A stretch of DNA of 64,000 nt from Blautia sp. Its GTDB lineage: Bacteria; Bacillota; Clostridia; Lachnospirales; Lachnospiraceae. The notes beneath the pieces are model-generated. The model searched no databases. It was not told where the DNA came from and saw only the letters and a list, made by a program, of their open reading frames with translations. The first letter of the stretch is position 1. Each line of letters starts with the position of its first letter. Made by a program: the position numbers and the translations under genes. Positions 9,484 through 57,206 of the stretch are shown here, piece after piece. The DNA is taken from NCBI GenBank assembly GCA_017475035.1, contig JAFVGK010000066.1, positions 1 through 64,000 of the forward strand. Direction: 5' to 3'.

Positions 9484-9570
9484 AGATTTTGTACGCTGAC
9501 TCAATAGCCACAGATGACTATTTTGCAGCCACACCTGCAAAAAGCGCAGCCATGGGCAAAATATGTCTCT
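9484..9570 (-). repeat. dispersed leader element, copy A (before metY)
   Basis: In the minus direction it reads GAGACATATTTTGC, an internal hairpin, GCAAAATAGTC, then a GTACAAAATC end just before the metY ribosome site. The outer stem pairs 9556-9567 with 9516-9526. Very similar sequence recurs at 12500, 16393, 17365, 56332 and 57124. Confidence 0.85.
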
Positions 9571-9582
9571 TTACGACGGCGC

Positions 9583-11226
9583 TCAGATATACTGCGCCGC
9601 ATTGGAAACCTCGTAATCGTAGGAGGATATCTTCTTTACGAAGGATACGATCCGTCCCACCTCCTGATCCTCCACGGAATAATTGACCAGACGGGAGAAG
9701 CCATCATAGGTTTTTTCGGAGCCTCCCCCGGATTCCGTCAGAAGCAGTACAATGATGCCCGCCTGGTTCAGATGGCTGGTTATCGGCCACAGCAGCCCGC
9801 CGGTACAATCCGCGTCCGCCTCCAGAAGGTACGTATGTCTTCCTTCCATGACCAGTTCCTTTTCCGTGCGTTCCAGAAGCTCTCGGGTAAAGCCCCTGTC
9901 CCGCCGAAAAATTACCGTCACGGCCCGCTGACCCATCAACGCGCTCCGGGTCTTCGGACTGATCTTCTGCTCCAGCAGACTGTCGTTCACATCGTACTGA
10001 TCCACCACTCCGCAGCCGCTGGTCATGAAGCTGATCCGGTCGATCAGGATCAGTTCCCCCAGGCTCCTGTGACTTTTGAACCGATCCAGCACGATCCGTC
10101 CTGTAAGGGACAGTCTGCAGACCGCAATTTCATTTTTATTTACTCTTTTTCCATTCCTGAAAGCCCCGGAATTAATGTCGATGGTGTACAGAATCCGGGA
10201 TACGACGCCAGAAATCATCCTCGTGCCAAGCTTGATGTAATAGTTTCCGCCCTCGCTTAAGGGTTTGTCGTCCATCCAGATCAGCGTGGCTGTTATGGAG
10301 TCCGCCGTATTCAGACCGGCCTCCCTGGTCAGAACAGAACCCCTGGATATATCGATCTCCCTGTCCAGCGAAAGGGTCACCGCCTGACCGGCCACAGCCG
10401 TCTCCAGGTTTTTTTCTCCGGACAGGATTTTTTTCACCCTGGCTTTTTCCGAACCAGGAAGCACGGTTATTTCCTCTCCCACGGAAACCGTTCCGCTTTC
10501 AATCTGTCCCTGAAAGCCACGGAAGCTGTGATCAGGCCTGCAAACCCGCTGGACTGGCAGATAAAAGCCTTTTTCTCCCCGTTCATCCTGCACCTCCACC
10601 TGCTCCAGCCAGGTCAGCAGCGCTGTTCCTTCATACCAGGGCATATGGGGGGATTTATAGGTGACATTATCTCCCTCTGTAGCCGAAACCGGGATGACAA
10701 CCAGCTCCTCCAGCTCCAGCTCACGGCCAAGCTCAATGATCTGCCGTCTGATCTTTCCGAAAATCTCCTGGCTGTAATTGACCAGATCCATCTTGTTGAC
10801 GGCAAACACGAAGTGACGGATGCCCATGATGGCACAGATTCTGGCATGACGTCTGGTCTGGGTCAGTACGCCTTTGCTTACATCCACGAGAATCACGGAC
10901 AGATCCGCAAAGGAGGCGCCGACCGCCATATTTCTGGTATATTCCTCATGTCCGGGCGTATCAGCCACGATGAAGCTTCTGGCCTCCGTGGTGAAATAAC
11001 GGTAGGCCACATCGATGGTGATTCCCTGTTCCCTCTCCTCTGTAAGGCCGTCCAACAGAAGGGAATAGTCAATTTCCCCACCCCTGCTGCCAATCTTTGA
11101 TTCCAGTGCCAGCGCTCTTTTCTGATCCGTGTACAATAGCTTGGCGTCATATAAAATGTGGCCGATCAGCGTAGATTTTCCATCATCCACACTTCCGCAG
11201 GTAATAAACTTCAGAAGATCTCTCAT
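9583..11226 (-). CDS. cysN: sulfate adenylyltransferase subunit 1 (GTPase) with a degenerate APS-kinase-like tail
   Basis: A 547-residue protein. Residues 1-220 form the GTPase domain with G1 GSVDDGKST, G3 DTPGHEEY and G4 NKMD; the following beta-barrel domains match elongation-factor-like CysN. The last ~115 residues resemble APS kinase (REL...GRHTYLL, LNQAGIIVLLL) but lack its P-loop, so they cannot bind ATP in the normal way. With CysD it makes APS from ATP and sulfate, driven by GTP. A dead kinase tail fits a pathway that reduces APS directly. ATG 11226 lies one base after the cysD stop; the frame open to 11286 overlaps cysD. Confidence 0.9.
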   Translation of the reverse strand: MRDLLKFITCGSVDDGKSTLIGHILYDAKLLYTDQKRALALESKIGSRGGEIDYSLLLDGLTEEREQGITIDVAYRYFTTEARSFIVADTPGHEEYTRNMAVGASFADLSVILVDVSKGVLTQTRRHARICAIMGIRHFVFAVNKMDLVNYSQEIFGKIRRQIIELGRELELEELVVIPVSATEGDNVTYKSPHMPWYEGTALLTWLEQVEVQDERGEKGFYLPVQRVCRPDHSFRGFQGQIESGTVSVGEEITVLPGSEKARVKKILSGEKNLETAVAGQAVTLSLDREIDISRGSVLTREAGLNTADSITATLIWMDDKPLSEGGNYYIKLGTRMISGVVSRILYTIDINSGAFRNGKRVNKNEIAVCRLSLTGRIVLDRFKSHRSLGELILIDRISFMTSGCGVVDQYDVNDSLLEQKISPKTRSALMGQRAVTVIFRRDRGFTRELLERTEKELVMEGRHTYLLEADADCTGGLLWPITSHLNQAGIIVLLLTESGGGSEKTYDGFSRLVNYSVEDQEVGRIVSFVKKISSYDYEVSNAAQYI

Positions 11227-11227
11227 G

Positions 11228-12133
11228 TCAAAAATAACCTTCCTTCTTCCTTCGTTCCATGCTGCCTGTTCCGCTGTCCGAGTCAATCACACGGGTCGTC
11301 CGTTCAGACTCCACCGCACTGAGTGTCTCCTCGATGATCTCATCCAGGGTCGTGGCCTCCGATTCAAAACCTCCTGTCAGGGGATAGCAGCCCAGGGTTC
11401 TGAAACGCAGCTTTTTCATCCGAACCTTTTCGCCAGGTTTCAGCCGCATACGGTCGTCGTCCACCATGATCAGCTGATTGTCCCGCTCCACACAAGGTCT
11501 TACATCCGCGAAATAGAGGGGTACGATATCGATCTGCTCCTGCCTGATATATTGCCAGATATCCTTCTCTGTCCAGTTGGAAAGCGGAAAAACCCGGATG
11601 CTTTCTCCCTTGTGTATTCTGGTGTTATAAAGCTTCCACATTTCAGGCCGCTGGTTTTTCGGATCCCAGGCCTGTGCTTCGTTCCGGAAGGAAAAAATTC
11701 TTTCCTTGGCCCGGGATTTTTCCTCGTCCCTGCGGCCACCCCCGAAGGCAGCGGTAAAACCGCCTTCCTTCAGCGCCTCTTTCAGCGCCTGTGTCTTCAT
11801 GATGTCCGTGTAAGAGGAGCCGTGGTCAAAAGGATTGATCCCGTTTTGAACCCCTTCCTCGTTCCGGTGTACCAGCATCGTGAGACCGTACTTCCTGGCA
11901 ATCTCATCCCGGAAACGGATCATCTCCTTGAATTTCCAGGTGGTATCTATATGAAGGAAGGGGAAGGGCGGTTTTTCGGGATAGAAAGCCTTTAAAGCCA
12001 GATGAAGCATGACGGAGCTGTCTTTCCCGATGGAATACAACATCACCGGTTTTTCGCACTCCGCGGCCACTTCACGCATGATATAAATCGCCTCTGCCTC
12101 CAGAACATCCAAATGTGTAAGTTTATGATTCAT
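11228..12133 (-). CDS. cysD: sulfate adenylyltransferase subunit 2 (PP-loop)
   Basis: A 301-residue PP-loop ATP pyrophosphatase with [11 protein letters not shown] (about residues 33-43), the [16 protein letters not shown] stretch and the NWTEKDIW motif, all standard in CysD. It is the catalytic half of ATP sulfurylase and acts with the CysN GTPase encoded one base downstream. A GGGAG ribosome site precedes ATG 12133, and the gene follows the AprB-like ferredoxin after 27 bp. Confidence 0.95.
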
Positions 12134-12160
12134 CCGCCTGATCTCCCACTATCTAATACC

Positions 12161-12472
12161 CTAATACCTGTTTGCCTCTTTTGTATCTGTGATAAGCACC
12201 CTTTGCCACTGTCCCTTCCGGATCACCCACCCGGTCTGCCCGGGTGTGTAATTCACCGACAGCCTGGCCCCTCTGCCGCCCATCTGCGGAGAAAGCGTAT
12301 AGGATATCGCCTGCCTGCGGCAGGCTTTCATACAGGCGAGACAGCTCCAGCAGTCGGAGGGTCTTCTCAGAAGGGCATGCCTGTTCTCATCCAGCCGGAT
12401 CAGATTACCCGGGCAAATCCTTGCGCAGCTTCCGCACCCTGTACATTCCGTCTGTTCGATGATAATCCCCAT
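12161..12472 (-). CDS. APS reductase beta subunit-like ferredoxin (AprB-like)
   Basis: A 103-residue protein with two [4Fe-4S] clusters in C-x2-C-x2-C-x3-C form: CTGCGSCARIC and CWSCLACMKAC. The rest (to the C-terminus, with basic and aromatic residues) matches the tail of AprB-type subunits. It should carry electrons to the flavin subunit encoded at 12612-14396. ATG 12472 is chosen because AAGGAAGG is ten bases upstream and the protein then starts MGIIIEQTEC; the longer frame to 12526 enters the dispersed repeat. Confidence 0.85.
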   Translation of the reverse strand: MGIIIEQTECTGCGSCARICPGNLIRLDENRHALLRRPSDCWSCLACMKACRRQAISYTLSPQMGGRGARLSVNYTPGQTGWVIRKGQWQRVLITDTKEANRY

Positions 12473-12499
12473 GGCTGTATGACCTTCCTTTAAAAACGC

Positions 12500-12585
12500 A
12501 ATTTTGTACTTTGACTCAATGATCACGGATGACTATTTTGCAGTCACGCCTGCAAAAAACGCAGCCGTGGGCAAAATATGTCTCC
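12500..12585 (-). repeat. dispersed leader element, copy B (before the AprB-like gene)
   Basis: Same architecture as copy A. The outer stem pairs GCAAAATATGTC (12571-12582) with GACTATTTTGC (12531-12541). It occupies most of the 139-bp gap between the aprA-like stop and the aprB-like start. Confidence 0.85.
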
Positions 12586-12611
12586 TTTCACGCAATGAAT
12601 CTGTTTCTCTG

Positions 12612-14396
12612 TCAGTCTCTGGTCCGGTCAGCAGGCTGATCGCTCCAGAATCCGGACTGAGCCTTCTGTTCATCATCAGCGGGAACACTTGGGACAAGCT
12701 CCCGCCGGATCATCCGGATCCGTCCGTTCTCCATCACGGAATTCACAAAACGCCGGTATTCCGGTTTTATTCCCGGGTAATCCGCGTTCTCCTGAAATCC
12801 GCGCCAACGGGTCTCCTTTCTCTCCTGCAGATGATGAATCAGCACCAGTGATACGAACAGCCGCTCACGCACCTCATAGACCGCCAGCAGATCATAAAGA
12901 TCCTTTGCCTTTACCCTCGGCAGCAGCCCGATCAGCTCCTCGATCCTGTGCCTGGCAATTCTCAGGCCTGCCTCATGGTATCTGTAATCTGTCCGGATCC
13001 CGCCTGCATATTCGTCCATCACGGCCTGCATGGCTGTCTCCAACTCATAGGGGGTATAAACCGTCTCATTTTCCTTCTGAGCTGCTGCCTGCAGATATTT
13101 TTCATATTCTGCTTTCTTTTCTGCCGCCTGCCGGTCCAGCCCGTATGATGGCTCACCATTCACTGCAGGCGGGACGTTTCCGGTCTCCCTTTTGCCGGCT
13201 GAAGCCGCTGCCAGATAGCGCTGTATGCTTTCGGCCGCGATTTCTCCCTCCGCCAGGGCACCCGTCACATATTTCTGGGGGGATCCGCCGGCCACATCCC
13301 CTGCCGCAAACAGACCGTCCAAGGTGGTTTTCCTCCCCTGGTCTACCCAATAGCCGCTGGCCGCATGGCCGCCCACAATATAGGGTTCTGTCCCCTCAAT
13401 CTCCACGTCCTGTATGGCCGGTCCCCGGCCGGAATCGATCCATCTCAGGGTCTGTACAGGCGCCATGTTCAGATAAGCCTTGTACAGCTCCTCCTCGCTG
13501 GCCGGACTGATCCCTCTGGTTCTGAGATAGCAGGGACCCCGGCCTTCGCGGTTTTCGGTGACCGTTCCCCATAGCCGGCCTGCTGTCGTATGATCATATC
13601 TGTCCTCATAATCCTCACCCACGGCATTGACCTGGCGGGCACCGATTCCCTGGGCAATGGTTCCGACAGGTGCAATGGTATCCTTACATCGGAGTGCGAT
13701 AAAACGCATCTCAAAGGTCGTCATTTCCGCTCCGGCCAGAATGCCCATACAGTAACCGGCACCTGTATTGAAGGGCGGATACCACAGCTGATGGGACTGC
13801 AGCCCTGTATGGTTCGGGCGGTACAGACCAGCAGCGCCGCCTGTCGAGATCAGGATGGCACCGGCTCTGAATTCATAAAACACGCCATCCGTCATTCCGA
13901 AGCCGTAGGCTCCCCGGACTTTCTGATCCATCCTGAAGTCCGTGATGTTCACGTGCTCATATACCTGAACATTTTTCTGTTTTCTGACCTCTGACGCCAG
14001 AATGGGTTTGATATTTTCCCCGTTGATCTTCAGGTTCCGCCATCCTCTGGAAACATATCTGCCCTGCGAATCTTTCAGAATGGTCAGTCCCCTTCTTTCC
14101 ATGTCATGGGTCACACGGTTAAATCTGCAGGCCAGATCCAGAAGCAGATCCTCCCGTGCGATTCCCTGCGCGTCCGACATGGCGTAGCGTACATAATCCT
14201 CCGGCTGACAGCCTTCGGGAATATAAGCATTCAGTGCATTGACGCCTGCAGCCAGACAGCCGCTCCTGCGGATATCCGCTTTATCCACCAGCGCCACCCG
14301 AAGTCCTGAATTCTCTCCCAGCCGGATGGCCGCGTAGCAGCCTGCGGTTCCGCCCCCTATGATCAATACATCCGATTCGACCGTTCTGTGTTCCAA
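12612..14396 (-). CDS. APS reductase alpha subunit-like flavoprotein (AprA-like)
   Basis: A 594-residue FAD-dependent protein of the fumarate reductase/AprA family. It opens with the dinucleotide motif VLIIGGGTAGCYAAIRL and has the GGAAGLYRPNH, NTGAGYCMG and GLFAAGDVAGG segments typical of AprA. With the adjacent two-cluster ferredoxin it should reduce adenylylsulfate to sulfite and AMP. The presence of sulfate importer, CysDN, a small sulfite reductase and MetY in the same operon points to an assimilatory role despite the dissimilatory-type enzyme. The likely start is TTG 14396 with GAGAGG upstream. Other fumarate-reductase-like roles are less likely in this context. Confidence 0.85.
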   Translation of the reverse strand: MEHRTVESDVLIIGGGTAGCYAAIRLGENSGLRVALVDKADIRRSGCLAAGVNALNAYIPEGCQPEDYVRYAMSDAQGIAREDLLLDLACRFNRVTHDMERRGLTILKDSQGRYVSRGWRNLKINGENIKPILASEVRKQKNVQVYEHVNITDFRMDQKVRGAYGFGMTDGVFYEFRAGAILISTGGAAGLYRPNHTGLQSHQLWYPPFNTGAGYCMGILAGAEMTTFEMRFIALRCKDTIAPVGTIAQGIGARQVNAVGEDYEDRYDHTTAGRLWGTVTENREGRGPCYLRTRGISPASEEELYKAYLNMAPVQTLRWIDSGRGPAIQDVEIEGTEPYIVGGHAASGYWVDQGRKTTLDGLFAAGDVAGGSPQKYVTGALAEGEIAAESIQRYLAAASAGKRETGNVPPAVNGEPSYGLDRQAAEKKAEYEKYLQAAAQKENETVYTPYELETAMQAVMDEYAGGIRTDYRYHEAGLRIARHRIEELIGLLPRVKAKDLYDLLAVYEVRERLFVSLVLIHHLQERKETRWRGFQENADYPGIKPEYRRFVNSVMENGRIRMIRRELVPSVPADDEQKAQSGFWSDQPADRTRD

Positions 14397-14436
14397 CTTC
14401 CATTCCTCTCCACTTTTCGTCTCTGTCCGGGCTGCT

Positions 14437-15522
14437 TCAGATAACCACGGATTCCTGTTTCAGTGTCAGATTAGGTACCAGAGATATCTGATCCTCCTGA
14501 ATCACAAACAATCTGTGGATAAAAACATCGACCGTTTCTCCGATTTCAATCCGTGGATCATTGATACTGCGGATGGATGAAATCAGGTTATCGTGCAGCC
14601 GGACCCGGATCTCCAGGCTGCTTCCGCGGAAAATGATGTCCTCCACGACAGCCTCCTCCGCTGATCTGGAATACTGGACCTTTTCTCCTTTTTTGAAAAC
14701 GCTCACAAATTCAGGTCGGAGGATTGCCGTAACATCCTCGCCGCTCTTCTCAAAAAACCGGAACCGGTCGAAATTTCTGACCGGAATGGAATTTCCGATG
14801 AACCGCGCCACGAAGGGTGTCGCCGGATTTGTGTACAGCTCCTGAGGCGTACCGGTCTGCTCCACCCGTCCGAGATTGGTGACGATAATGTCATCCGCAA
14901 CTTCGATGGCTTCATCTTGATCATGGGTCACGAAGATACTGGTAATCTTCAGCCGGGTGATCATCTCCTTCAGCCAGGTTCTCAGCTCCAGTCTCACCTT
15001 CGCGTCGATCGCCGCAAAGGGTTCATCCAGCAGCAGGATCTGGGGATCCGGAGCCAGAGCTCTGGCAAAGGCGACCCGTTGCCGCTGCCCGCCTGACAGC
15101 TGGCTCGGATACCTTTTTTCCAGTCCGTCGCACCCGATAAGACTCAGGAGTTCCGACACCTTTTCCCGGATCTTTTTTTCCGGCATTTTTTTTACCCTCA
15201 GCCCAAAGGCGATGTTGTCATATACCGTCATATACCGGAACAGGGCGTAGCTCTGGAAAACAAAACCAATCCCCCGTTCGCTGCCCGGTACATTGTTCAC
15301 AACCTTATGATCGATCAGGATTTCACCGGAATCCGGCTGCTCCAGGCCGGCGATCATACGCAGGATTGTGGTTTTTCCGCTTCCGGACGGACCGAGCAGA
15401 GCCACCAGCTTGCCCTTTGGGATGGTCAGATTTACATCCCTTGAGGCATGAAAATCCTTGAAGTGTTTGTTGATTCCTCTCAGCTCCACATAGGAATCCA
15501 TCTTCGTCTTTGTTTCACTCAT
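14437..15522 (-). CDS. cysA: sulfate ABC transporter ATP-binding protein
   Basis: A 361-residue ABC ATPase with Walker A GPSGSGKTT, signature LSGGQRQRVAFARAL, Walker B LLLDEPFAAID and switch His in VTHDQDEA, followed by a C-terminal TOBE-like regulatory domain of about 110 residues. This layout and its position beside CysT/CysW identify the sulfate/thiosulfate importer. ATG 15522 follows GGAAGGGGAG; an upstream GTG at 15543 overlaps the cysW stop and has no such site. Confidence 0.92.
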   Translation of the reverse strand: MSETKTKMDSYVELRGINKHFKDFHASRDVNLTIPKGKLVALLGPSGSGKTTILRMIAGLEQPDSGEILIDHKVVNNVPGSERGIGFVFQSYALFRYMTVYDNIAFGLRVKKMPEKKIREKVSELLSLIGCDGLEKRYPSQLSGGQRQRVAFARALAPDPQILLLDEPFAAIDAKVRLELRTWLKEMITRLKITSIFVTHDQDEAIEVADDIIVTNLGRVEQTGTPQELYTNPATPFVARFIGNSIPVRNFDRFRFFEKSGEDVTAILRPEFVSVFKKGEKVQYSRSAEEAVVEDIIFRGSSLEIRVRLHDNLISSIRSINDPRIEIGETVDVFIHRLFVIQEDQISLVPNLTLKQESVVI

Positions 15523-15539
15523 CTCTGGCTCCCCTTCCG

Positions 15540-16370
15540 TCACTTATCCATATCTGCTTCTTTTTTTCCTCTTTTTTCCAGCAGCAGGCGGAGGATCAGA
15601 ATAACCACCGCCATGACCACCAGGATCGAGGAGGCTGCAAATGCCCCGGTAAAATCATAGCCCTGATAAAGAAGCTCGATATATAACGGCAGGGTATTGG
15701 TCTTTCCTCTCAGATGTCCCGAGAGTACGGATACGGCTCCGAATTCTCCCATGGCCCTGGCGCTGCAAAGCACAACCCCATACAGGAAAGCCCACTTGAT
15801 ATGGGGAAAGGTCACTTTCCGTAAAATGGTCAGGGTACCGGCACCCATCAGGGCCGCTGCTTCCTCCTCATCCGTCCCCTGGGCATTCAGCACAGGAATC
15901 AGTTCTCTTGAAATAAAGGGGAAGGTGACAAATATGGTCGCCAGAATGATCCCGGGGACAGCGAAAATCACCTGAATCCCATGGCTGTCCAGGAAAGGAT
16001 ACAGCGCGCTCTGCCGGCCAAAGGTCAGGACATAGATCAGACCGGCAATAATCGGAGAAACCGTCACCGGCAGATCGATAAAAGTTGAAAGGATTTTTTT
16101 TCCTTTAAAAGCATATTTCGTCAGACACCAGGCCGCGGCAAGACCGAAGATGGAATTGATGATCACCGCCCAGAAGGCTGCTTTTACCGTCAGCAAGACG
16201 GCTTTGAGCGCGTATTCGTCCGTGATCGCCTGCACATAGACCCCAAGTCCTTCCCTGAGCGCTGTCGAGATGATATAGATCAGGGGCAGAAGCAGGAAAA
16301 CCGACAGAAAAGCAAAGCAAAGCAGGATCAGCATCCATTTTAATGGTCCGCTGTCTTTTCGGATGTTCAT
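15540..16370 (-). CDS. cysW: sulfate ABC transporter permease CysW
   Basis: A 276-residue permease with six predicted membrane helices and the binding-protein-dependent transport motif EEEAAALMGAG...ILRKVTFP (EAA loop, about residues 166-185) that docks CysA. It pairs with CysT (16485-17324). ATG 16370 follows GGAGGG. A dispersed leader element lies just upstream. Confidence 0.92.
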   Translation of the reverse strand: MNIRKDSGPLKWMLILLCFAFLSVFLLLPLIYIISTALREGLGVYVQAITDEYALKAVLLTVKAAFWAVIINSIFGLAAAWCLTKYAFKGKKILSTFIDLPVTVSPIIAGLIYVLTFGRQSALYPFLDSHGIQVIFAVPGIILATIFVTFPFISRELIPVLNAQGTDEEEAAALMGAGTLTILRKVTFPHIKWAFLYGVVLCSARAMGEFGAVSVLSGHLRGKTNTLPLYIELLYQGYDFTGAFAASSILVVMAVVILILRLLLEKRGKKEADMDK

Positions 16371-16392
16371 AGCTTACCCTCCTCCCAAAAAG

Positions 16393-16482
16393 AAGTTTTG
16401 TACGCTGATTCAATGGCTACGGATGATTATTTTGCAGCCACTCCTGCAAAAAAGCGCCGCCATGGGCAAAATATGTCTCCGT
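16393..16482 (-). repeat. dispersed leader element, copy C (before cysW)
   Basis: Outer stem GCAAAATATGTC (16466-16477) with GATTATTTTGC (16425-16435). Compared with copies A and B it has an extra base in the inner loop, which would shift any reading frame, so the conserved unit is nucleotide structure rather than a peptide. Confidence 0.85.
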
Positions 16483-16484
16483 TT

Positions 16485-17324
16485 TCAGCTCAAACCGCTG
16501 ATCCTGCGGGAAACCATGCTTTGAAGGTAACCGTTGACGGACAGGATTACAAAGGACAGCGCCAGCAGCACAAGGGCGATCGAGGTTGCAGCGGCATAAT
16601 CAAATTCCTGCAGCTGGGACATGATGAGCAAAGGCGCAATTTCTGTTTTGTATGGGGTATTGCCTGCGATAAACACTACGCTCCCATATTCTCCGATACA
16701 TCTGGCAAAAGCCAGGGTAAAGCCGGAGATCAGGGATGGCAGAATCTCAGGAAAGATCACTCTTCGAAACACCATTTTTCCGTCTGCCCCCAGGAGCATC
16801 GCCGCCTCTTCATATTGCAGATCGATCTTTTCCAGAACAGGCTGTACGGAGCGTACGACAAAGGGGATCCCGATAAAGATCAGCGCGACGGTGATGCCCA
16901 GTCTCGTATAGGCGATCCGGATGCCGAAACGGTCAAAAAAGAATTTTCCCACCCATCCGTTGGGTGTCGTCATATGCGTCAGGGAAATACCCGCTACAGC
17001 TGTAGGAAGGGCGAAGGGCAGTTCGATGATCCCATCCAGGAACCGTTTCCCGGGAAATTGGTACCGGACCAGCACCCAGGCCAGGATCAGACCCATCACC
17101 GCATTCACGACCGAAGCGATGAAGGCTGTCGAGATACTGACGAAGTAACCGGACAGGTTCCTGGGGCGTGTCACCGTGTGCCAGAACTGGGCAGGTGACA
17201 GCCTGGCGGAAAATATGACCAGAGAACAGAGGGGAATGAGCACCACGATACTGAGCGTTGTCAGTGTGATCCCCAGGGATATTCCAAAACCGGGTATGAT
17301 GCTTTTTCTTCTGGCTTTTCTCAT
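16485..17324 (-). CDS. cysT: sulfate ABC transporter permease CysT (CysU)
   Basis: A 279-residue permease with six membrane helices and the EAA loop QYEEAAMLLGADGKMVFRRV (about residues 172-190). It forms the CysT-CysW channel of the sulfate importer. ATG 17324 follows GGAGGAGGGGAAGG. The sulfate-binding protein gene ends 155 bp upstream, with a leader element between. Confidence 0.92.
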   Translation of the reverse strand: MRKARRKSIIPGFGISLGITLTTLSIVVLIPLCSLVIFSARLSPAQFWHTVTRPRNLSGYFVSISTAFIASVVNAVMGLILAWVLVRYQFPGKRFLDGIIELPFALPTAVAGISLTHMTTPNGWVGKFFFDRFGIRIAYTRLGITVALIFIGIPFVVRSVQPVLEKIDLQYEEAAMLLGADGKMVFRRVIFPEILPSLISGFTLAFARCIGEYGSVVFIAGNTPYKTEIAPLLIMSQLQEFDYAAATSIALVLLALSFVILSVNGYLQSMVSRRISGLS

Positions 17325-17364
17325 GTCTGCCTTCCCCTCCTCCTATAACGCATGTTATAGATTC

Positions 17365-17450
17365 TGACTTTATTTTGTTATCTATCGCGCTTCGCGCTCT
17401 AGGACAAAATATGTCTCCTCTCAAAACGAAGTTTAGTACTTTGACTTTTT
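17365..17450 (-). repeat. dispersed leader element, copy D with a second partial end (before cysT)
   Basis: Outer stem ACAAAATATGTC (17404-17415) with GACTTTATTTTGT (17365-17377). The inner hairpin is replaced by GCGCGAAGCGC, which pairs well although its sequence differs from copies A-C. A detached right-end module (GTCAAAGTACTAAACTTCG on the minus strand) lies at 17424-17445. Confidence 0.75.
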
Positions 17451-17479
17451 GTATTTTCTAAAGTGTCTGAGACAAAGCT

Positions 17480-18520
17480 TTACTGCTCGTAAATCCGGTC
17501 AAAATTGGCTCCGTCCGCAAAATGGACAGCCCTGGCTTCTTCCCAGCCGCCAAAGTGAGTGATATCGGTCAGATTGATGTTGTCGTTGATCCATCTGCCA
17601 TCCTCCGGGATTTCCGTTATGGTATTGGAATCCGCGGTAAAGACATATTTGTCATAGACAGTCTTGCTGCTGGGGCGATAGAAATTCTGCGCTTCGATCT
17701 CCTGGGCCTCTTCGGAATACAGATAGCTTAGATATTCCCTGGCTACCTCTTCCGTCTTGTGCTTCCTGGCCACCTCATCCACGACTGCCACCGTCGGCTG
17801 GCACAGGATGGAAATAGAAGGAACCACAATCTCATATTCTCCGGGATACTCTTTCAGGGAAAGGAAGGCTTCGTTTTCCCATGCCAGCAGAACATCGCCC
17901 TGCTTGTTTTCCACAAAGGAGGTTGTAGAGCCCCGGGCACCGGAATCCAGGACCACCACGTTGCTGTAAAGCTTGCTGATGGCATCAAGGATTTCTTCTT
18001 CACTCAGCCCCTGCTGTTCAAAATAGTACCAGGCAGCAAGATAATTCCACATTGCGCCGCCGGAGGTCTTCGGATTCGGGGTGATGATGCCCACATCATC
18101 CCGAACCAGGTCGTCCCAGTCGTAAATCTCCTTCGGGTTGCCGGACCGGACGAGAAATACGATGGTCGAGGTGTAGGGTGAGCTGTCCAGGTCAAATTCC
18201 GAGGTAAAGCCTTCGTCGATCAGTCCGGCGTTTGCCACCACCTGTACGTCTCCCTCCAGGGCCAGGGTCACCACATCAGCCTCCAGGCCATTGGCTACCT
18301 CCAGGGCCTGCTTGCCGGAGCCGCCGTGAGACTGGGTGATCGAGACCTCCTGTCCGAATTCTTCTTCATAATGTTCTTCAAAAAGCTTATTGTAGGATGC
18401 ATACAATTCTCTGGTCGGATCATAGGATACATTTGTCAGTTCAATGGTGTCGGCATGGCTGACCGCCGTTATACTTAAGGTGAGAATGGATGAGACCAGG
18501 AATATTACTGTTTTTTTCAT
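17480..18520 (-). CDS. sbp: sulfate-binding protein (Sbp/CysP family)
   Basis: A 346-residue secreted solute-binding protein. The signal peptide (MKKTVIFLVSSILTLSITA...SHA) is followed by the family opening LTNVSYDPTRELY, a QSHGGSGKQALEV anion-binding loop, and NPKTSGGAMWNYLAAW. These are the hallmark sulfate-site segments of Sbp/CysP. It delivers sulfate to CysTW-A and is the first gene of the long sulfur operon. ATG 18520 follows GGGAGG. Confidence 0.93.
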   Translation of the reverse strand: MKKTVIFLVSSILTLSITAVSHADTIELTNVSYDPTRELYASYNKLFEEHYEEEFGQEVSITQSHGGSGKQALEVANGLEADVVTLALEGDVQVVANAGLIDEGFTSEFDLDSSPYTSTIVFLVRSGNPKEIYDWDDLVRDDVGIITPNPKTSGGAMWNYLAAWYYFEQQGLSEEEILDAISKLYSNVVVLDSGARGSTTSFVENKQGDVLLAWENEAFLSLKEYPGEYEIVVPSISILCQPTVAVVDEVARKHKTEEVAREYLSYLYSEEAQEIEAQNFYRPSSKTVYDKYVFTADSNTITEIPEDGRWINDNINLTDITHFGGWEEARAVHFADGANFDRIYEQ

Positions 18521-19751: not shown

Positions 19752-19900
19752 AAATGATTGCATCGACAAAAGCCTGATTCTACGGATTGCTTCGCAGCGG
19801 AGCTGTTCTCGTGTCTGTGGGCGACCCAATCTCATGCAAAAATGAGCGACTTCATTTTTGCATGACCTTTTGTCGCCTGAATCATTAAATCATTTCGCTA
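19752..19900. repeat. MITE-like inverted-repeat element, copy 1
   Basis: About 20-bp imperfect terminal inverted repeats (AATGATTGCATCGACAAAAG and CTTTTGTCGCCTGAATCATT) flank an inner perfect 13-bp hairpin (19833-19845 with 19852-19864). Copy 2 is at 26856-26962. No coding sequence is present. A wider match TATACTCGCT / AGCGAGTATA borders the element. The rest of 19650-20018 holds nothing recognisable. Confidence 0.75.
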
Positions 19901-20079: not shown

Positions 20080-21102
20080 TTACTCCGGCTTGTTGCTTAC
20101 TTCTATCAAACACTCTAAGGTCTGAAGCGCTTTCCCGCTGTCAATCAGATCCGCCGCCAATGCAATGCCGTCCTGCATGCTGTCAGCTTTACCGGCTATA
20201 TAAAGGGCTGCCCCGGCGTTCAAAAGAACAGCATTGCGTTTGTGCCCTTTTTCTCCTTTGAGAATACTGCGGGTAATCTCTGCATTCTCTTCCGGCGTGC
20301 CTCCCCTCAGATCACTTTTTTCACAGCTTTCCATACCGAAATCCTCCGGCTTGATTGTATAAGTCTTATACCAGCCGTCTTTTATCTCGCAAACCAGGGT
20401 CGGCGCACTTAAGGAAATTTCATCCAGTTTCTCTGTGCCGTAAACCACCATGCCCCTTTTCACGCCAAGTTCTGCCAGAACCTGTGCCAGCGGCTCCACG
20501 AGATAAGCGTCGTAGACGCCCAGCAGCTGCATGGATGGCCTGGCCGGGTTCGTCAAAGGACCAAGGATATTAAAAACCGTACGAAATCCAAGCTCTTTAC
20601 GGATCGGACCGACATATTTCATGGAAGTGTGATATTTCTGGGCAAAGAAGAAGCACATTCCCGCTTCTTTTAACAACTCCACACACCTTTCCGGACTTTG
20701 CTGAATATTTACTCCCAGAGCTTCCAGACAGTCTGCCGTCCCGCAGCTGGAAGATGCCGCCCGGTTTCCGTGCTTCGCTATCTTGACACCTCCTGCCGCG
20801 GCAACCAATGCCGAAGTCGTCGAGATATTAAAGCTATGGGCATTGTCACCGCCGGTACCGACGATCTCTAATACCTCCATCCCGGTGTCCACACGAATGG
20901 CATGATCCCTCATCGCTGCCGCGCAGCCGGCAATTTCGTCCTTCGTCTCCGCACGGGCGCTCTTCGTCGCCAGCGACGCAAGGAACGCCGCGTTTTGCGT
21001 CGGAGTACTCTCCCCGCTCATGATCTCATTCATGACAGCATATGCTTCCTGATATGTGAGATCCATTTTATTGGTTATTTTTTCGATCGCTTCTTTAATC
21101 AT
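20080..21102 (-). CDS. trpD: anthranilate phosphoribosyltransferase
   Basis: A 340-residue enzyme with the PRPP site [14 protein letters not shown] and the anthranilate-site stretches [21 protein letters not shown] and [29 protein letters not shown]. It joins anthranilate to PRPP in tryptophan synthesis. No other trp gene is in the window and it has its own promoter and terminator, so it is a lone copy. ATG 21102 with GAGGAGG upstream is preferred; the frame open to 21201 starts before the predicted transcription start. An exact 97-bp copy of its 20280-20376 segment lies at 2500-2596. Confidence 0.93.
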
Positions 21103-26855: not shown

Positions 26856-26962
26856 ATAATTGCATCGCCAAAAACCCGATTCTACGGATCCGATCTCATG
26901 CAAAAAAGAGCGAGTTTCATATTGCATGACCTTTTGCCGCCTGAATCATATGATTATTTCGC
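26856..26962. repeat. MITE-like inverted-repeat element, copy 2
   Basis: Shares ATTGCATCG-CAAAA, CGATTCTACGGAT, CTCATGCAAAAA, TTGCATGACCTTTTG and CGCCTGAATCAT with copy 1 (19752-19900) in the same order, but lacks about 40 bp of the middle. It lies in the leader of the signalling operon. Confidence 0.75.
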
Positions 26963-27979: not shown

Positions 27980-28183
27980 GAAAAATATAAAAAAATATTG
28001 CACATTTTTCTGTGGAGTATAATTGTCTGATTTGTTTATCCTGTATATATTTTAGATGAGAAACAACTAATAACAGATCGGCCAAGCCTCACCTGTTCCT
28101 TTGGAATGAATCCAAAAGGATCCACACCCAAAGCCGGCCTTGCAATGGAAGGAGGACGTAAGGCAAGCCCTCCTCCCCCCATT

Positions 28184-28246
28184 GTGAAGTTTTGTACGCT
28201 AAATCAAAGACCATGGATGACTATATTTAGCAGCCGTGCCTGATTC
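28184..28246 (-). repeat. partial dispersed leader element, copy G
   Basis: On the minus strand it reads GGCTGCTAAATATAGTCATCC...GCGTACAAAACTTC, the right two thirds of the element, followed by a GGGGGGAGGAGGG ribosome-site-like run but no convincing gene. It lies just after the stop of the antiporter operon's last gene. The remaining 27980-28183 sequence contains only a small hairpin and no recognisable gene. Confidence 0.65.
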
Positions 28247-28251: not shown

Positions 28252-30435
28252 TCAAAAGCAAAAGATAATCACACCGAGGATAACCAGAATACCGATGCAG
28301 GTCATCATCAATGCAAAAGAGAAATTCCGCAGAATCGGCGTTGCCGCGTCATTGACTTCTTCCTGCAGGATCATCCAGCCGGAGACTTTCACATCGTCAT
28401 CCGTACGTATTTTTTTCTCTCTCGCAACAGTGCGGCGGATCAACACAATCAACGCATCCAGACTGGTCGTAAATACCCTGCCGATAAAGTTCGACGCCCA
28501 CATGACTGCTTTGGAAAGCGGAATCAGCACTCTGTTTTCTCCAAAGAAAGAAGCGATTGCTTTACCTCCGGTCAGACTCCCCTTGCAAGCCGTGATCAAA
28601 AGCTTCTGTTCTGCCGCCACCGAAGCAAATTTCTTTCCGGCTGCCAGAACAGCTTTGCAGACGGGAATCAAAACCGTATGCTCCGCATAAATCGCGACCA
28701 CATCTCCAAAGAAATCCGGGAGATAACGCGTCAGCACCGGTCTGTAAACCAGATCCTCCAGATCCAGCTTTTCAGGCCAGAGATTGACATAGGAACCGTT
28801 TCGGAAGAGAACCCTGCGAACAAACAGCACATAAACAGCTCCGCCGATAGCCAGCGATATCGCGCTGCCGGACAGATTGACCAGTGAAAAGGCATGAAAA
28901 TGAGCGATCTCATGATATGGGATCTCCAGGATCGGAACGCCGGTATAGTTCATCATGAAAGCAGCCAGCTTCTTCATCACAAACGGATTTCCCAGAATCA
29001 CCATAAGCAAAGAAGAACCGAAGATCGCCGCGGTACTTGCCGTATTCATGCATCGGGCATCCGAATCAAATTCTGCCTGTCTGGTGGGATGCTTCTGTAT
29101 AAAGACCGCAATGAAAAGCTTCAGCATATAGGCAAAGGTCATCCCGCCCGTAAAGAGGAAAACCCACTCTGCCACATGTAAAAATACTGCAAGCCGGGCA
29201 AGATGATGTGCGCCTTCCACAATTCCTTCATGCAGAAGTGTTTTACTGATATAACCGTTAAAAAGAGGAACACCACTGATGCCCAGCGCGCCAAGGGCAA
29301 ATGCGATCTTTAAAAACAGCTTATTGCGCCCGTAGCCCCGGATATCATCCAACGTCAGAGTCTCAAGATTCATTACCACAACGCCTGCTGCCATAAAGAG
29401 CACCAGCTTGATCAGGGAATGATTCACCATATGCAGCATCGTACCTGCCAGCGCCAGCACGACGCCTTCTTCATTGACCTCAAACAAAAGAACCGTCATA
29501 CCGATCCCTGTCAGGATGAACCCGATCTGTGACATGGACGAACAGGCCAGGGTACGTTTCAGATTTACGGAAAACAATGCCAGCAAGGCACCCAGAAACA
29601 TTGTAATCAACCCCAGAATCAACACCAGAAGGCCAAATTCCCTGATTTCCAGCATTGCCTCAAGGGTAGTCATCAAAATTCCGTAAATACCTACTTTCGT
29701 CAAAACACCGGACAACAGCGCGGAACCCGGAGAAGGCGCCACCGGATGCGCCTTTGGCAGCCATACATGAACCGGGAACATTCCTGCCTTACATCCGAAG
29801 CCAAATAAAATGCAGATGCCTGCGGCAAGAATCACGCCTTCATTCCCCGTCACCTTTACATAATCCTCTACAGACGGCGGAAGCTCCGCAAACTCCAGGG
29901 TGCCCGCAGCGTGATACAGTAAAGCCAGCCCCATAAAAAGAACCAGGCCGCCGATCACCGCAATGAACAGATAAGTATACCCGGCTTTAATCGCTCCGGG
30001 GTTCTGTTCATGGATGACCCAGGTAAAGGAGGTAAAGGACAGAATTTCGAAAAAGACAAATGTCGTCATCAGGTCTGCCGACAGCATCACGCCCTCGGTG
30101 GCTCCAAGGGTCATCAGTACAAACATATAATACCGGTTCAGTCCGTCCCTCTCATGCAGGAAATACTCCCTGGAAAAAAGAGTCGTCCCCGCCCACATCA
30201 AAGCCGTGATAATTGCGTAAACCGACCGGAATCCATCTGTGATGAAATGCAGACCGCTGCCAAATACATAAGGAATATCCAGGGACGGCTTCAGGAACGG
30301 CAGGCATAGGCTAAGCGCCAGCTCAATCGCCGTAATCGCCAGGATAAACATATCCCTGGATTTCTCTGACTCCCTCCCGGCGATATACGACGCGATCGCC
30401 GCCGCAAAGGGTAGGAATACAATCAAAATGAGCAT
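28252..30435 (-). CDS. NuoL/MrpA-like proton antiporter subunit with long C-terminal extension
   Basis: A 727-residue membrane protein. Residues 1-~520 are the antiporter core with the conserved CKAGMFPVHVWLPKAHPVAPSPGSALLSG segment and the VNHSLIKLVLFMAAG helix lysine region. The C-terminal 200 residues include a segment of three successive ~24-residue repeats (586-657) and a last membrane helix, reminiscent of the lateral helix of NuoL. It is the last of four antiporter-like subunits in this operon. It should conduct H+ or Na+ as part of an Mrp/Mbh-type complex. ATG 30435 follows GGGAGG. Confidence 0.85.
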   Translation of the reverse strand: MLILIVFLPFAAAIASYIAGRESEKSRDMFILAITAIELALSLCLPFLKPSLDIPYVFGSGLHFITDGFRSVYAIITALMWAGTTLFSREYFLHERDGLNRYYMFVLMTLGATEGVMLSADLMTTFVFFEILSFTSFTWVIHEQNPGAIKAGYTYLFIAVIGGLVLFMGLALLYHAAGTLEFAELPPSVEDYVKVTGNEGVILAAGICILFGFGCKAGMFPVHVWLPKAHPVAPSPGSALLSGVLTKVGIYGILMTTLEAMLEIREFGLLVLILGLITMFLGALLALFSVNLKRTLACSSMSQIGFILTGIGMTVLLFEVNEEGVVLALAGTMLHMVNHSLIKLVLFMAAGVVVMNLETLTLDDIRGYGRNKLFLKIAFALGALGISGVPLFNGYISKTLLHEGIVEGAHHLARLAVFLHVAEWVFLFTGGMTFAYMLKLFIAVFIQKHPTRQAEFDSDARCMNTASTAAIFGSSLLMVILGNPFVMKKLAAFMMNYTGVPILEIPYHEIAHFHAFSLVNLSGSAISLAIGGAVYVLFVRRVLFRNGSYVNLWPEKLDLEDLVYRPVLTRYLPDFFGDVVAIYAEHTVLIPVCKAVLAAGKKFASVAAEQKLLITACKGSLTGGKAIASFFGENRVLIPLSKAVMWASNFIGRVFTTSLDALIVLIRRTVAREKKIRTDDDVKVSGWMILQEEVNDAATPILRNFSFALMMTCIGILVILGVIIFCF

Positions 30436-38996: not shown

Positions 38997-39123
38997 ACCG
39001 TTCTCCGTCTTTAAGGACTATGCCTGACGATTACGACAGACATCGCCGGAGACCGCCGATGTCAGTTACAGATAAACCTGAACAAAAGACAGACCGATAC
39101 GACAGATTCGAGCGGATCCTCGA

Positions 39124-40755
39124 TTATGTTGAATATTCTTCATCGTAATCGTAGTCCTCTTCATAATCATAGTCTTCCTCATAATAGGTATCTTCGTAGT
39201 CGTAGTCTTCCTCATAATAGGTATCTTCGTAGTCGTAGTCTTCCTCATAATAGGTATCTTCGTAGTCGTAGTTTTCCTCATAATCGGTATCTTCGTAGTC
39301 GTAATCTTCCTCATAGTCATAATCATAGTCTTCATCGCCCTCCGCGTTATCTTCAGACGCGGAATTTCCCGCCGCGGCAGTTCCGAGCTGGGCGAAATAC
39401 TGATCTGCCGAGACTGAATCACGATCCTGTACACGAATGCCGGCGCCGTCATACATGTTGCCTTCACTGTCAAACGTAAAATCCAGCATCGTGTTTTTTT
39501 CCGTGGCAGTCCATTGCAGGAGCTGCGTCTGAGCAGCTTTGTCCTTCAAAGCACGGACCGTAAAATCATTGCCATACGTCGCCGCAAGCGTATGCGACAT
39601 AGCCAGCGTGTCTGTATAATCAGAAAGCTTATAGACCGCATGGTCTCCGTTGCTGATATTATAATGCATCACCAGAGGCTCCAGATCCGGATTGATAATC
39701 TGAATCTGTGAATTTTCCCCGCTTCCGGTCTTCTGGATGGTAAACCGCGCCAGACCGCCAAGCATAGCCTTGTCTGACGACTGGCCGGAGACAAAATTGC
39801 CCAGTCCGTAATAAATCAGCATCTTATGTCCCTGCTGATCCGTCATGGTACAATATGGCGACAAAACATGGGAGAAGGTACCGATCGTAACGTCAACGCC
39901 CTGGGAAAGCAGGTAATTCGCCCACTCCTTTTGATATTCCGTGGGCATCGACTCCTGGTCTTTGCCAAAGTGGATGCAGAAAATCACACAGTCGCTGATC
40001 TCCTTTGCCTGCGCAATCATCTGAGCCACTTCCGCAGTCTGCAGAGTAAACAGGCTGTATCCTGCGGCAGTGTCCGAGCGCACTGTCACGCTCTGGATCG
40101 GCATACTGTAATCCAGGACCGCAATCCGGATCCCGTTGACCTCTCTCACAATGATCTGTGCCGAGGCATTTGCTTCCCTGATGCCTGCAAGAGACACGCC
40201 CGGCTGAGAGTTTTTCATAAAATCCATGGTCTGGGCCACGAATTCATCTCCTGCCGAGAGCATGTGCTCGGTAGAAGCGGTAAAAACGTCAAATCCTGCC
40301 GCCGCCAGGGCATCAGCCACCTCAACCGGCGTAACATAGGGCACATATCCGCTGGCCGAGGTATGATCCGTGGTGAAAGGGGTCTCCTGATTGACAATCG
40401 CAAGATCCGCCGCCTGAATATCTGCTTTCACATGTTCATATAAGTGATCATAGCTGTAAATCCCGTTGTCCCTCTGTCCTGAAGTCAGAAGAGAGCCTTC
40501 TACGATATTATCCCCGACAGCCACAATCGAAGCGGTTCCTGTCACGGCTCCGCCGCTGCCTGCATCTGTCCCTTGTATCGCCTCAAGGGCAGCAGCTGTT
40601 TTCTCCGCCTCCATCGCCGGCCTTTGTACCATATTATAATCGATCCGGTTAAACAACACGCAGATCAGAACCAGAACAACAGCAGATACGATCATGCTGA
40701 TCCGGCTATTCATCTTTTCTACCAGATTTAATGGAAGATTATCATTTCGTTTCAT
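39124..40755 (-). CDS. CapA/PgsA-like metallophosphatase-fold protein with an acidic Tyr-rich repeat tail
   Basis: A 543-residue protein with one N-terminal membrane anchor (~20-40) and a CapA/PgsA-type calcineurin-like domain (~75-400: AVGDNIVEGSLL, LAIVNQETPF, IHFGKDQESMPTEYQ, GTFSHVLSP). Several canonical metal-site positions differ: the usual N-N-H is TASTEH and the usual GHHPH is GTFSH, so catalytic activity is doubtful. The last ~75 residues are almost only D, E and Y, built from 11-residue units. It probably faces outside the membrane. PgsA-type proteins export poly-gamma-glutamate, but no PgsBC is in the window. Confidence 0.8.
   Translation of the reverse strand: MKRNDNLPLNLVEKMNSRISMIVSAVVLVLICVLFNRIDYNMVQRPAMEAEKTAAALEAIQGTDAGSGGAVTGTASIVAVGDNIVEGSLLTSGQRDNGIYSYDHLYEHVKADIQAADLAIVNQETPFTTDHTSASGYVPYVTPVEVADALAAAGFDVFTASTEHMLSAGDEFVAQTMDFMKNSQPGVSLAGIREANASAQIIVREVNGIRIAVLDYSMPIQSVTVRSDTAAGYSLFTLQTAEVAQMIAQAKEISDCVIFCIHFGKDQESMPTEYQKEWANYLLSQGVDVTIGTFSHVLSPYCTMTDQQGHKMLIYYGLGNFVSGQSSDKAMLGGLARFTIQKTGSGENSQIQIINPDLEPLVMHYNISNGDHAVYKLSDYTDTLAMSHTLAATYGNDFTVRALKDKAAQTQLLQWTATEKNTMLDFTFDSEGNMYDGAGIRVQDRDSVSADQYFAQLGTAAAGNSASEDNAEGDEDYDYDYEEDYDYEDTDYEENYDYEDTYYEEDYDYEDTYYEEDYDYEDTYYEEDYDYEEDYDYDEEYST
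39174..39305. repeat. 33-bp coding minisatellite, four units
   Basis: Three identical 33-bp units (39174-39206, 39207-39239, 39240-39272) and one diverged unit (39273-39305), each encoding eleven residues of a YEEDYDYEDTY pattern in the tail of the CapA-like protein. Confidence 0.9.
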
Positions 40756-52488: not shown

Positions 52489-52502
52489 GATTCCATGTAT
52501 TT

Positions 52503-53951: not shown

Positions 53952-54059
53952 TTGATTTTTCCTCCTCATATAACTCGGTTTTATACTGACATACTTTATC
54001 TGATGAAAATTCTGTTTCTCAGGCAGCCGGCGCTGCCGAAGCAGCAAAATCCGTCTCCC

Positions 54060-56302: not shown

Positions 56303-56331
56303 CTCTATTTCTCCTCATACAATGCTGATTG

Positions 56332-56398
56332 TAAAACGAAATACCGACCGGATGACTATTTTGCTGCCTGTCACGCTCCGGAACAAAATATGTCCCCC
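56332..56398 (-). repeat. dispersed leader element, copy E (before hydF)
   Basis: Outer stem CAAAATATGTC (56384-56394) with GACTATTTTG (56354-56363), with a different inner loop from copies A-C. It ends about 25 bp before hydF. Confidence 0.75.
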
Positions 56399-56418
56399 GA
56401 AAGTCATTCCTCAGATAC

Positions 56419-56457
56419 AAAAAAGCCGCCATATCTCCTGGTTAAGATACGGCGGCT
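56419..56457 (-). terminator. intrinsic terminator after the candidate small RNA
   Basis: A 12-bp stem with one mismatch on the DNA (a G-U pair in minus-strand RNA), AGCCGCC-TATC, followed by TTTTTT on the minus strand. Confidence 0.75.
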
Positions 56458-56646
56458 GCTTAAGCATACCTATAGAAGCGCACGGACAGCATCGCTCCTT
56501 TTCCGGATCAGACACTTGCTCTCTGACACACGGAACGCGAAAATCAAAGCTTACGTATGCGTGCGCGACTTACATCGCAATCTTTCATCTCAAGCCAAAA
56601 GCAGGAGGCATCCATCCACCTCTTCCGGATTTTGACGTCAGGATAT
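56419..56646 (-). ncRNA. candidate structured small RNA upstream of hydF
   Basis: A promoter-like TTGTAA-18-TACTAT (56682-56653, minus) is followed by ~225 bases with no good ORF, several possible hairpins (TTCCG-TCAGA...TCTGA-CGGAA; GCATAC with GTATGC) and a strong intrinsic terminator at 56419-56457. Two near-identical 14-bp direct repeats (56687-56700 and 56706-56719) lie just upstream of the -35. I could not match it to a known RNA family. Confidence 0.4.
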
Positions 56647-56768
56647 ATCAATATAGTATTTTTAATATTATTTGAATTACAAAAATTTATAGTATGCGCA
56701 CAAACTTATAGCATGCGTATGAATTTACTACGGAATCATGCCGCTTGCAGCGGCGTAAATCCGGCGCA

Positions 56769-56805
56769 GTAAACGAATCAAAAGGCAGGCATTTTATTCG
56801 TTTAC
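56769..56805. other. inverted repeat after the TM1266-like gene
   Basis: GTAAACGAAT (56769-56778) and ATTCGTTTAC (56796-56805), a 10-bp stem with a 17-base loop, 35 bp after the stop of the regulator gene. Possible terminator without T-tract. The rest of 56458-56839 apart from the RNA promoter region holds no recognisable gene. Confidence 0.4.
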
Positions 56806-56839
56806 CATAAATGTTTCCGCATGCCCGGGCACAGCTGCC

Positions 56840-57085
56840 TTAAGCCTTTGAATAAGTCGCTTTTGCGCTGATGCCATCCAGACGGCCCAAAGCTCCCGTC
56901 AGGGCATTAATTTCATCATTCGGCGCATCGATCGCTACACAGATGATATTCATATTTTTCTTGCGGTAAGGAATGCCCATACGCCCGATAATGTACTGTC
57001 CATATTGATGAAGTAGTTCATTCAGTGCGCCTGCTGCCTCTTCGTTTTCTACAATAATACTGATCACTGCAACTCTATCATTCAT
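56840..57085 (-). CDS. TM1266-type iron-only hydrogenase system regulator
   Basis: An 81-residue ACT/NikR-like protein with VAVISIIVEN, LLHQYGQYIIGRMGIPYRKKNMNIICVAIDA and LTGALGRLDGI segments typical of the family found beside hydrogenase maturation genes. It likely acts as a small regulatory protein of that system; no DNA-binding domain is visible. ATG 57085 follows GAGGAGG. A leader element (copy F) is directly upstream. Confidence 0.85.
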   Translation of the reverse strand: MNDRVAVISIIVENEEAAGALNELLHQYGQYIIGRMGIPYRKKNMNIICVAIDAPNDEINALTGALGRLDGISAKATYSKA

Positions 57086-57123
57086 CTTGATCCTCCTCTT
57101 TCAGAGCTTTCCTTCCATAACAC

Positions 57124-57206
57124 GGTTTTGTACGTTTCACCATTGTCTCCGGATCCTGATTTTATCGCTTCGGCAATTGAACTGCCAAAAACAAAATCAG
57201 TCTCCT
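57124..57206 (-). repeat. dispersed leader element, copy F (before the TM1266-like gene)
   Basis: The outer stem is now ACAAAATCAG with CTGATTTTATC (57191-57200, 57156-57166) and the inner hairpin GGCA/TGCC, both altered compared with copies A-C but still pairing. It ends in the usual GTACAAAAC. Confidence 0.7.

Follow-up and report, generated by a model that had tools for sequence, protein, structure and literature searches.

The window analysed here is a stretch of 64,000 nucleotides from a Blautia sp. genome (assembly GCA_017475035.1, contig JAFVGK010000066.1, positions 1 to 64,000 of the forward strand), and our subject is a family of short hairpin repeats that stand before its sulfur and hydrogenase-maturation genes. 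NCBIfam matches over the cut-off were obtained for CysW, CysT, HydF, HydG, HydE and a member of the TM1266 family. An earlier note, made from the letters alone, had reported six copies and one partial copy of a leader-like repeat, and all seven were found, on the minus strand (Table 1). Its names for cysW, cysT, hydF and the TM1266-like gene held, but those of metY and the aprB-like gene are less firm: a MetY-type protein is the best NCBIfam match of its gene, below the cut-off, and AprB is the second of many weak ferredoxin matches for the gene at 12472. A supposed detached right-end module before hydG turned out to be a whole, worn copy, and the one proposed before trmB was not recovered, two module scans giving only the listed copies and the remnant in front of the cysT copy.

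Table 1. Repeat copies in the window, with the matches of the left-stem covariance model
Feature	Position	Strand	Left-stem match (E)	Context
Type A copy	9470..9570	−	9503–9570 (<= 1.6e-4)	101 nt long with its left tetranucleotide (AGAG in this copy); 8 nt separate the right end GGGAGGAG from the metY-like ATG at 9461
Type A copy	12485..12585	−	12518–12585 (4e-17)	before ferredoxin-like gene, start 12472
Type A copy	16379..16480	−	16412–16480 (<= 1.6e-4)	at the cysT–cysW junction; cysW has the terminal GGGAGGAG as its ribosome site
Type B copy	17337..17418	−	17356–17418 (1.5e-6)	before cysT; right hairpin CTATAACatgcGTTATAG, then GAGGAG
Right-end remnant	17415..17439	−		belongs to another copy, stacked ahead of the type B one
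Left-truncated copy	28170..28240	−		tail, right end and GGAGGAG kept; left part missing
Worn type C copy	53962..54058	−	53992–54058 (1.6e-4)	before hydG
Worn type B-like copy	56311..56397	−	56341–56397 (5e-9)	before hydF; inner hairpin shortened
Worn type C-like copy	57109..57205	−	57142–57205 (6e-10)	upstream of TM1266-family gene, whose own ribosome site lies further on

The covariance model of the left stem gave seven matches in the window, all with E <= 1.6e-4. These scores are not independent, because the 43 rows of the model include 56341–56397 and relatives of the rest. A further weak match on the plus strand (28381–28411, E 0.0034) spans only 31 bases, and we found no place for it.

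Architecture, copy number and folding of the element

The repeats are palindromic, hairpin-forming units of 90–100 nt, each consisting of GGAG, a long imperfect stem-loop, a short tail, a weaker right hairpin and a terminal GGGAGGAG. Three main subfamilies share the sequence plan GGAGAC, one base, (T/G)ATTTTG, inner hairpin, CAAAAT(A/C), GTCATCC, tail, right hairpin, GGGAGGAG; when copies were read side by side, types A, B and C were told apart by the sequence of the inner hairpin. The arms of the right hairpin vary (CAAAAC/GTTTTG, TTACAAT/ATTGTAA and CTATAAC/GTTATAG, with GTGAAC/GTTCAC in another genome), and hybrids that join the left half of one subfamily to the right half of another are present. 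Measured from after the left GGAG through the end of the right GGAG, the usual lengths are 97 nt for type A, 90–93 nt for type B and 93 nt for type C, the subfamily label being a simple pattern test that mislabels some worn copies. The 97-nt length, not a multiple of three, was found in 28 of 47 listed type A copies, and 93 nt was the commonest length of type C (38 of 89). The latter equals 31 codons, and four frames of the type C consensus, two forward and two reverse, have no stop. Type A copies are well preserved, with a median nearest-neighbour identity of 92%.

GGAG stands at both ends of the element, and copies stacked head to tail have one GGAG in common. Per-base agreement of this tetranucleotide was 88–97% on the left and 93–99% on the right, the copies and the right ends having been picked by motif, and a terminal [GA]2AGGAG was found in 149 of 150 listed copies (one mismatch allowed, 50-nt search window). 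No terminal inverted repeats were seen by eye, no inverted-repeat program having been run, and reading the copies revealed no separate target duplication, although GGAG itself could be a 4-base duplication. One type A copy elsewhere in the genome (C90:12071–12171, also L040:3072–3172) carries, in place of its middle, its own 5′ arm in inverted form, a rearrangement that looks as if replication had switched strands in the hairpin.

The genome (5.08 Mb in 200 contigs, 93.6% complete) holds at least 150 copies, every one matching the left-stem model R2 with E <= 2.2e-8. Counts given below on 150 copies refer to the matches listed, a lower bound from which worn copies are missing. A search with one window copy returned 42 matches. 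The 14-base 5′ end GGAGACATATTTTG, allowed at most one mismatch, gave 86 matches, a few of which are not elements, against one for a reversed control pattern.

The earlier note had proposed a covarying stem, and one long covarying stem is indeed common to the three subfamilies. De-duplication reduced 190 candidate copies to 51, and once eight worn or odd rows had been dropped the alignment held 43. In these 43 diverse copies 90.3% of the cells of a 22-pair stem were paired, and 105 cells had changed on both sides, compared to 39.8 ± 5.9 in shuffled alignments. The shuffle ignores relatedness; sliding by 1–3 columns, which gave 12–22 such cells, corrects for it, yet is biased towards a structure that, like this one, was derived from the alignment under test. 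The inner stem pairs are free to vary, with up to six pair types each. A first model (R1), built on an RNAalifold structure, mixed this stem with an alternative helix and was dropped. The alternative, riboswitch-like helix pairs the inner 5′ arm with the segment after GTCATCC; it looked strong in single subfamilies, but is weak overall (70.1% paired vs 64.0 ± 1.3 shuffled) and not kept in every subfamily, and was rejected. The right hairpin scored better than shuffled sequence in types A (score of at least 5 in 72% vs 38% shuffled) and B, as it did in other genomes; for type C the gain over shuffles was slight.

Copies at ribosome-binding sites and inside genes

Behind the terminal [GA]2AGGAG, at a distance of 2–17 nt, 107 of the 150 copies have the start codon of an open reading frame (ORF) of at least 60 codons (87 ATG, 12 GTG and 8 TTG). 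The commonest spacing between end and start is 8 nt (33 copies), and in 13 of the 150 another element begins directly behind. A start codon or a next copy thus followed the terminal GGGAGGAG in 118 of 150 copies, compared to 651 of 3000 random positions on the same strand; these tests were mechanical, made without a gene caller. With ATG only, the figure was 87 of 150 for element ends, against 945 of 7195 GGAG sites outside elements and 300 of 1520 longer AGGAGG, GGGAGG or AGGAGA sites outside elements. The 116 copies that no other copy visibly precedes have an A-rich flank before GGAG. Where no element follows, 57% of copies have G next to the terminal GGAG. The flanks of native GGAG ribosome sites (n = 300) resemble these, with G in that position in 44%. 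RNA folding predictions, made with somewhat different flank lengths, put the unpaired fraction of the left (old) GGAG at 0.22, mostly within the stem, and that of the terminal site at 0.43 (n = 105); the terminal site was predicted to be the more open in 83 of the 105 copies. For 80 sampled native ribosome sites the predicted value was 0.35.

To describe the genes behind copies, a random sample of 20 was taken from the genes that directly follow a copy outside the window, start with ATG and have at least 150 codons. A Pfam match at 1e-10, doubtful in one case, was obtained for sixteen, and their functions were mixed: Uma2 nuclease, UDP-sugar dehydrogenase, amino-acid kinase, semialdehyde dehydrogenase, histidine kinase, AIR synthase, Hsp33, FtsW/RodA, three ABC-transporter parts, RNA ligase, GH28, Sir2 and GFO/IDH were among them. 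On this list a sulfur/hydrogenase regulon was rejected, and the suggestion that a cis-acting RNA links sulfur and Fe–S/hydrogenase genes is not supported. The sulfur and hydrogenase genes behind copies are what the window happens to hold.

Nine copies of the 93-nt type C subfamily lie in sense orientation and in frame inside six genes: one each in AddA, a HelD/UvrD-like helicase, an ABC permease and CitG, two, in different frames, in an HGD-D/BadF-type protein, and three in tandem in CbiA. They encode the peptide TDFVFGSPTAEAAKSSSEDIESTYKTSFWEE and variants of it, and peptides such as TDFVFGSPTAEAAK are predicted within AddA or CbiA. Twelve listed copies had been flagged inside long same-strand frames. 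Eight of these were counted, and the first CbiA copy, which is outside the 150, was added; three with a start codon right behind (C120:9453, C49:4909 and C143:24284) and one without a recognisable protein (C90:17653) were left out. For three of the six genes relatives were compared (AddA, the HelD-like helicase and CbiA), and in none of these was the insert present. The HelD-like protein has six relatives without it, whose lengths agree, by a count on the alignment, once 31 residues are removed, and the relatives of AddA and CbiA have short linkers at the insertion place, except the AddA of one congener (G062). Two further copies lie in frame in antisense, in a class I/II aminotransferase and in a protein without a Pfam match; the antisense test gave 15 rows for 14 copies, of which the two without a start codon behind were counted. 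None of the 47 listed type A copies is embedded in a frame that stays open for 50 codons both before and behind it.

Distribution among genomes and orthologous sites

Seven of 64 members of the genus carry the element: the present genome, G018 (1 match), G032 (7), G062 (14), G072 (42), G074 (7) and G081 (10). The multi-genome runs behind these counts used stricter filters, which lose weak matches, and they gave no match in 24 genomes of the order. An exact pattern was found in at least 92 stretches of public genome contigs. The 80 loci listed came from 13 assemblies titled Clostridia, Clostridiales, Lachnospiraceae or Blautia, for some of which goat, sheep or cattle gut is named as the source. 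Among the genomes reached through these loci, seven further ones had 8 to 127 matches each and two a single match, while four more genome labels were second names of genus members, with the same counts and, where listed, the same places. Phages, plasmids and viral contigs gave no match in one exact-pattern search and in others made with one type A copy. The only match in one assembly (L111), a worn type A copy, recurs together with its flanks at C132:164043 of the present genome; this is either a shared old insertion or a stray contig.

Sites that carry a copy here were then compared with the corresponding sites of relatives, the names secY, adk and argC-type coming from inspection by eye or from a Pfam domain only. 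The copy at the secY–adk junction is absent from all 29 same-genus loci examined, which have an ordinary ribosome site instead. The cysT–cysW copy is absent from the seven relatives with a close CysW, and there the ribosome site sits at the end of cysT. Nine further junctions were read in G062, and none has an element at the corresponding place. The nine copies compared comprise seven at ribosome sites and two that are not (C26 and C182); C41 and C26 could be anchored through nearby similarity on both sides; C101, at the argC-type gene, also had two anchors, though a wide gap apart, and the other six had an anchor on one side only.

Some other repeats were noted in the window. A second hairpin family (GACCCAATCTCATGCAAAAATGAGCG...) occurs at 19823–19898 and 26887–26962; similar sequence splits a type B copy at C75:294 and occurs in related form next to copies at C145:36292 and C182:8483, so that this family may be a second mobile palindrome. 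A 130-nt repeat has two copies (2495–2624 and 20275–20404) that are 90% identical and 17.8 kb apart. A 33-nt tandem repeat at 39107–39355, inside the minus-strand ORF 39124–40755, encodes repeats that by eye are acidic and tyrosine-rich.

A probable mobile palindrome and its alternatives

Dispersal, stacking through a common GGAG, patchy presence, empty sites and copies inside genes all point to a mobile palindrome. We think it probable, at about 0.8, that the family is a small non-autonomous mobile palindromic DNA element that targets GGAG and rebuilds the Shine–Dalgarno site in which it lands. The element would insert directly 3′ of GGAG on either strand. On landing in a Shine–Dalgarno sequence it would part the old GGAG from the start codon and fold it into the stem, and its own right end, GGGAGGAG, would become the new Shine–Dalgarno sequence at unchanged spacing, so that the gene hit would stay translatable. 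Position and spacing suggest that a site supplied in this way is functional. That copies before genes always point the same way would follow from the polarity of the ribosome site, since an element entering 3′ of GGAG must point with the gene, and genes would tolerate the element because it brings its own GGGAGGAG. Type C, being frame-neutral at 31 codons, could also survive inside genes as an extra peptide, whereas the 97 nt of type A would shift the frame. The antisense copies inside genes favour a step at the DNA level, and the geometry of the ends would work like single-strand transposition by an HUH enzyme of the IS200/IS605 or RAYT type. The covarying stem is expected equally of a mobile palindrome, which must fold as DNA. 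Of the two natures the earlier note had allowed, that of a mobile intergenic repeat stands as far as mobility goes (many dispersed copies, stacking, patchiness, absence at orthologous sites), but the repeat is not only intergenic, as one subfamily also lies inside genes.

Several points weigh against this interpretation. The start test has a background of 21.7%, and 32 of the 150 copies have no start codon or copy behind. The stem counts rest on copies picked by patterns that already demand most of the outer stem, and on a structure drawn from the alignment on which it was tested, with 43 of the 51 de-duplicated rows used, so that the inner pairs carry the weight. The right hairpin of type C reaches a score of 5 in 54% of copies vs 37% shuffled. 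All genus members that carry the element are incomplete or slightly contaminated assemblies. The relatives are 62–70% identical in CysW and at most 90% in Adk, too distant for a base-exact empty site, and a 4-base target duplication would look the same as an insertion after GGAG. A longer, unrelated linker occupies the insertion place in the AddA of G062, so that this place tolerates changes of length anyway. A worn match in G062 (E 0.001), about 226 nt upstream of the argC-type gene, shares its gap with a copy of the present genome, though at another position within it.

The search for a mobilising enzyme belongs with these points, as none was found. The present genome has a single partial Y1 transposase (TnpA), the end of which is unrelated to the element. 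At E 0.001 the element-bearing G062, G091, G092 and G096 have no Y1 gene, while the element-free G004 and G061 have 14 and 13, and an IS200/RAYT partner was rejected since Y1 genes do not track elements across 30 genomes; a stem scan of 26 Y1 loci gave one match. Genes of REP-associated tyrosine transposases (RAYTs; REPs are described below) were absent from the present genome, 93.6% complete, at E 0.001. RAYT-like genes occur in G032, G081 and G088, their best NCBIfam matches being below the cut-off, and a longer, autonomous copy with the ends of the element was not found among the sequences examined. Only the RAYT-like gene of G088 (L438:805–1548) has a copy upstream, one element at about 180 nt.

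The best of the alternatives, to which we give roughly a third of the weight of the mobile palindrome, accepts the mobile origin and holds that copies are kept for tuning translation or mRNA ends in operons, the stem-loop shielding the upstream message and the supplied site setting the level of the next gene. REP and BOX repeats are thought to shield messages or tune translation within operons in this way. The 118 of 150 copies that end as a gene's ribosome site or in another copy, the terminal site predicted to be more open than the old one, and the good preservation of type A would all suit it. However, GGAG-directed insertion followed by loss of harmful insertions predicts the same position, and no site examined is common to a relative, so nothing points to long-term retention. 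A conserved regulatory RNA acting in cis, a leader or riboswitch-like element controlling a sulfur and Fe–S/hydrogenase regulon, is improbable. It could account for the strong covariation, for copies directly before start codons, for the alternative helix and for the neighbours in the window. At least 150 copies before genes of mixed function, their absence from the orthologous sites examined (0/29, 0/7 and the nine G062 junctions), head-to-tail stacking, copies within coding genes, even in antisense, and an alternative helix that not all subfamilies keep argue against it, as does Rfam 15, in which no family but tRNA scored over the gathering threshold in the window; a relaxed scan of 9400–17600 gave three chance-like matches, none at copies. 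Slightly less probable still is an RNA route, in which a piece of transcript would enter mRNA at ribosome sites and return to DNA by retrotransposition or reverse splicing. This would fit the mostly sense-oriented copies at ribosome sites and the nine sense against two antisense copies counted inside genes, but mRNA targeting would not give the two antisense in-frame insertions, and the polarity of GGAG alone gives the sense bias at ribosome sites.

As a mobile palindrome the family resembles several known systems in part. Rickettsia palindromic elements (RPEs) are described, in the part of the account available to us, as about 150 bp long, in ten families, and inserted in frame in unrelated genes (PMC10969869). 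The present family is likewise a set of short palindromes in several families, with at least 150 copies, three subfamilies and a covarying stem, lying between genes and, with nine sense copies in six unrelated genes, in frame with a recurring peptide. It differs from the RPEs, as far as that partial account goes, in its length of 90–100 nt and its phylum, the likeness being one of kind; it also differs in having GGAG at both ends, lying mostly at ribosome-binding sites and supplying a new site. Repetitive extragenic palindromes (REPs), in the sections available of their description, carry GTAG tags and lie mostly behind genes and sometimes inside repair genes (PMC3733652). Shared with the REP/RAYT system, within the same limits, are short palindromes tagged by a tetranucleotide, arrays, and some copies in genes, including those of replication and repair (PMC3733652, PMC6006769). 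In contrast to REPs so described, the element is tagged by GGAG rather than by GTAG or GTGG at the foot of a 20–65 nt hairpin, its unit is about 95 nt, its copies lie before genes as a ribosome site, and no RAYT was found in its genome.

The ends resemble those of IS200/IS605, in the portion of the review available (PMC6006769): the left end abuts the target tetranucleotide, the right end finishes in a tetranucleotide, both ends have subterminal hairpins, for the right one of which the evidence is weaker, and no terminal inverted repeat was seen. Unlike in IS200/IS605, no TnpA gene with these ends was found. As in prokaryotic miniature inverted-repeat transposable elements (MITEs) and in the pneumococcal BOX and RUP repeats, many small non-autonomous copies lie near genes and subfamily hybrids occur; BOX repeats are modular. 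Terminal inverted repeats and a separate target duplication, the marks of MITEs, were not seen on reading the copies. PARCELs, judging from a partial view of their description, are palindromic coding repeats of another sort (PMC2996958). Within the parts available of the RPE, REP and PARCEL accounts (PMC10969869, PMC3733652, PMC2996958), none of these is described as targeting and rebuilding ribosome sites, and the titles and abstract openings listed in searches of the open-access PubMed Central literature contain no description of the present family.

Whether the family belongs to a transposition system that targets the bacterial ribosome-binding site itself, recognising GGAG, hiding the old site and rebuilding a working one, with a frame-neutral form that enters proteins, we regard as evenly balanced. 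If so, about 100 or more genes of one genome would be translated from a site supplied by a transposon. The family would then illustrate a mobile repeat with built-in harm avoidance, one that enters the few most sensitive bases of a gene leader and replaces them. It would also offer a natural collection of about 100 genes with a swapped ribosome site, and would bring RPE-like in-frame palindromes to the gut Firmicutes.

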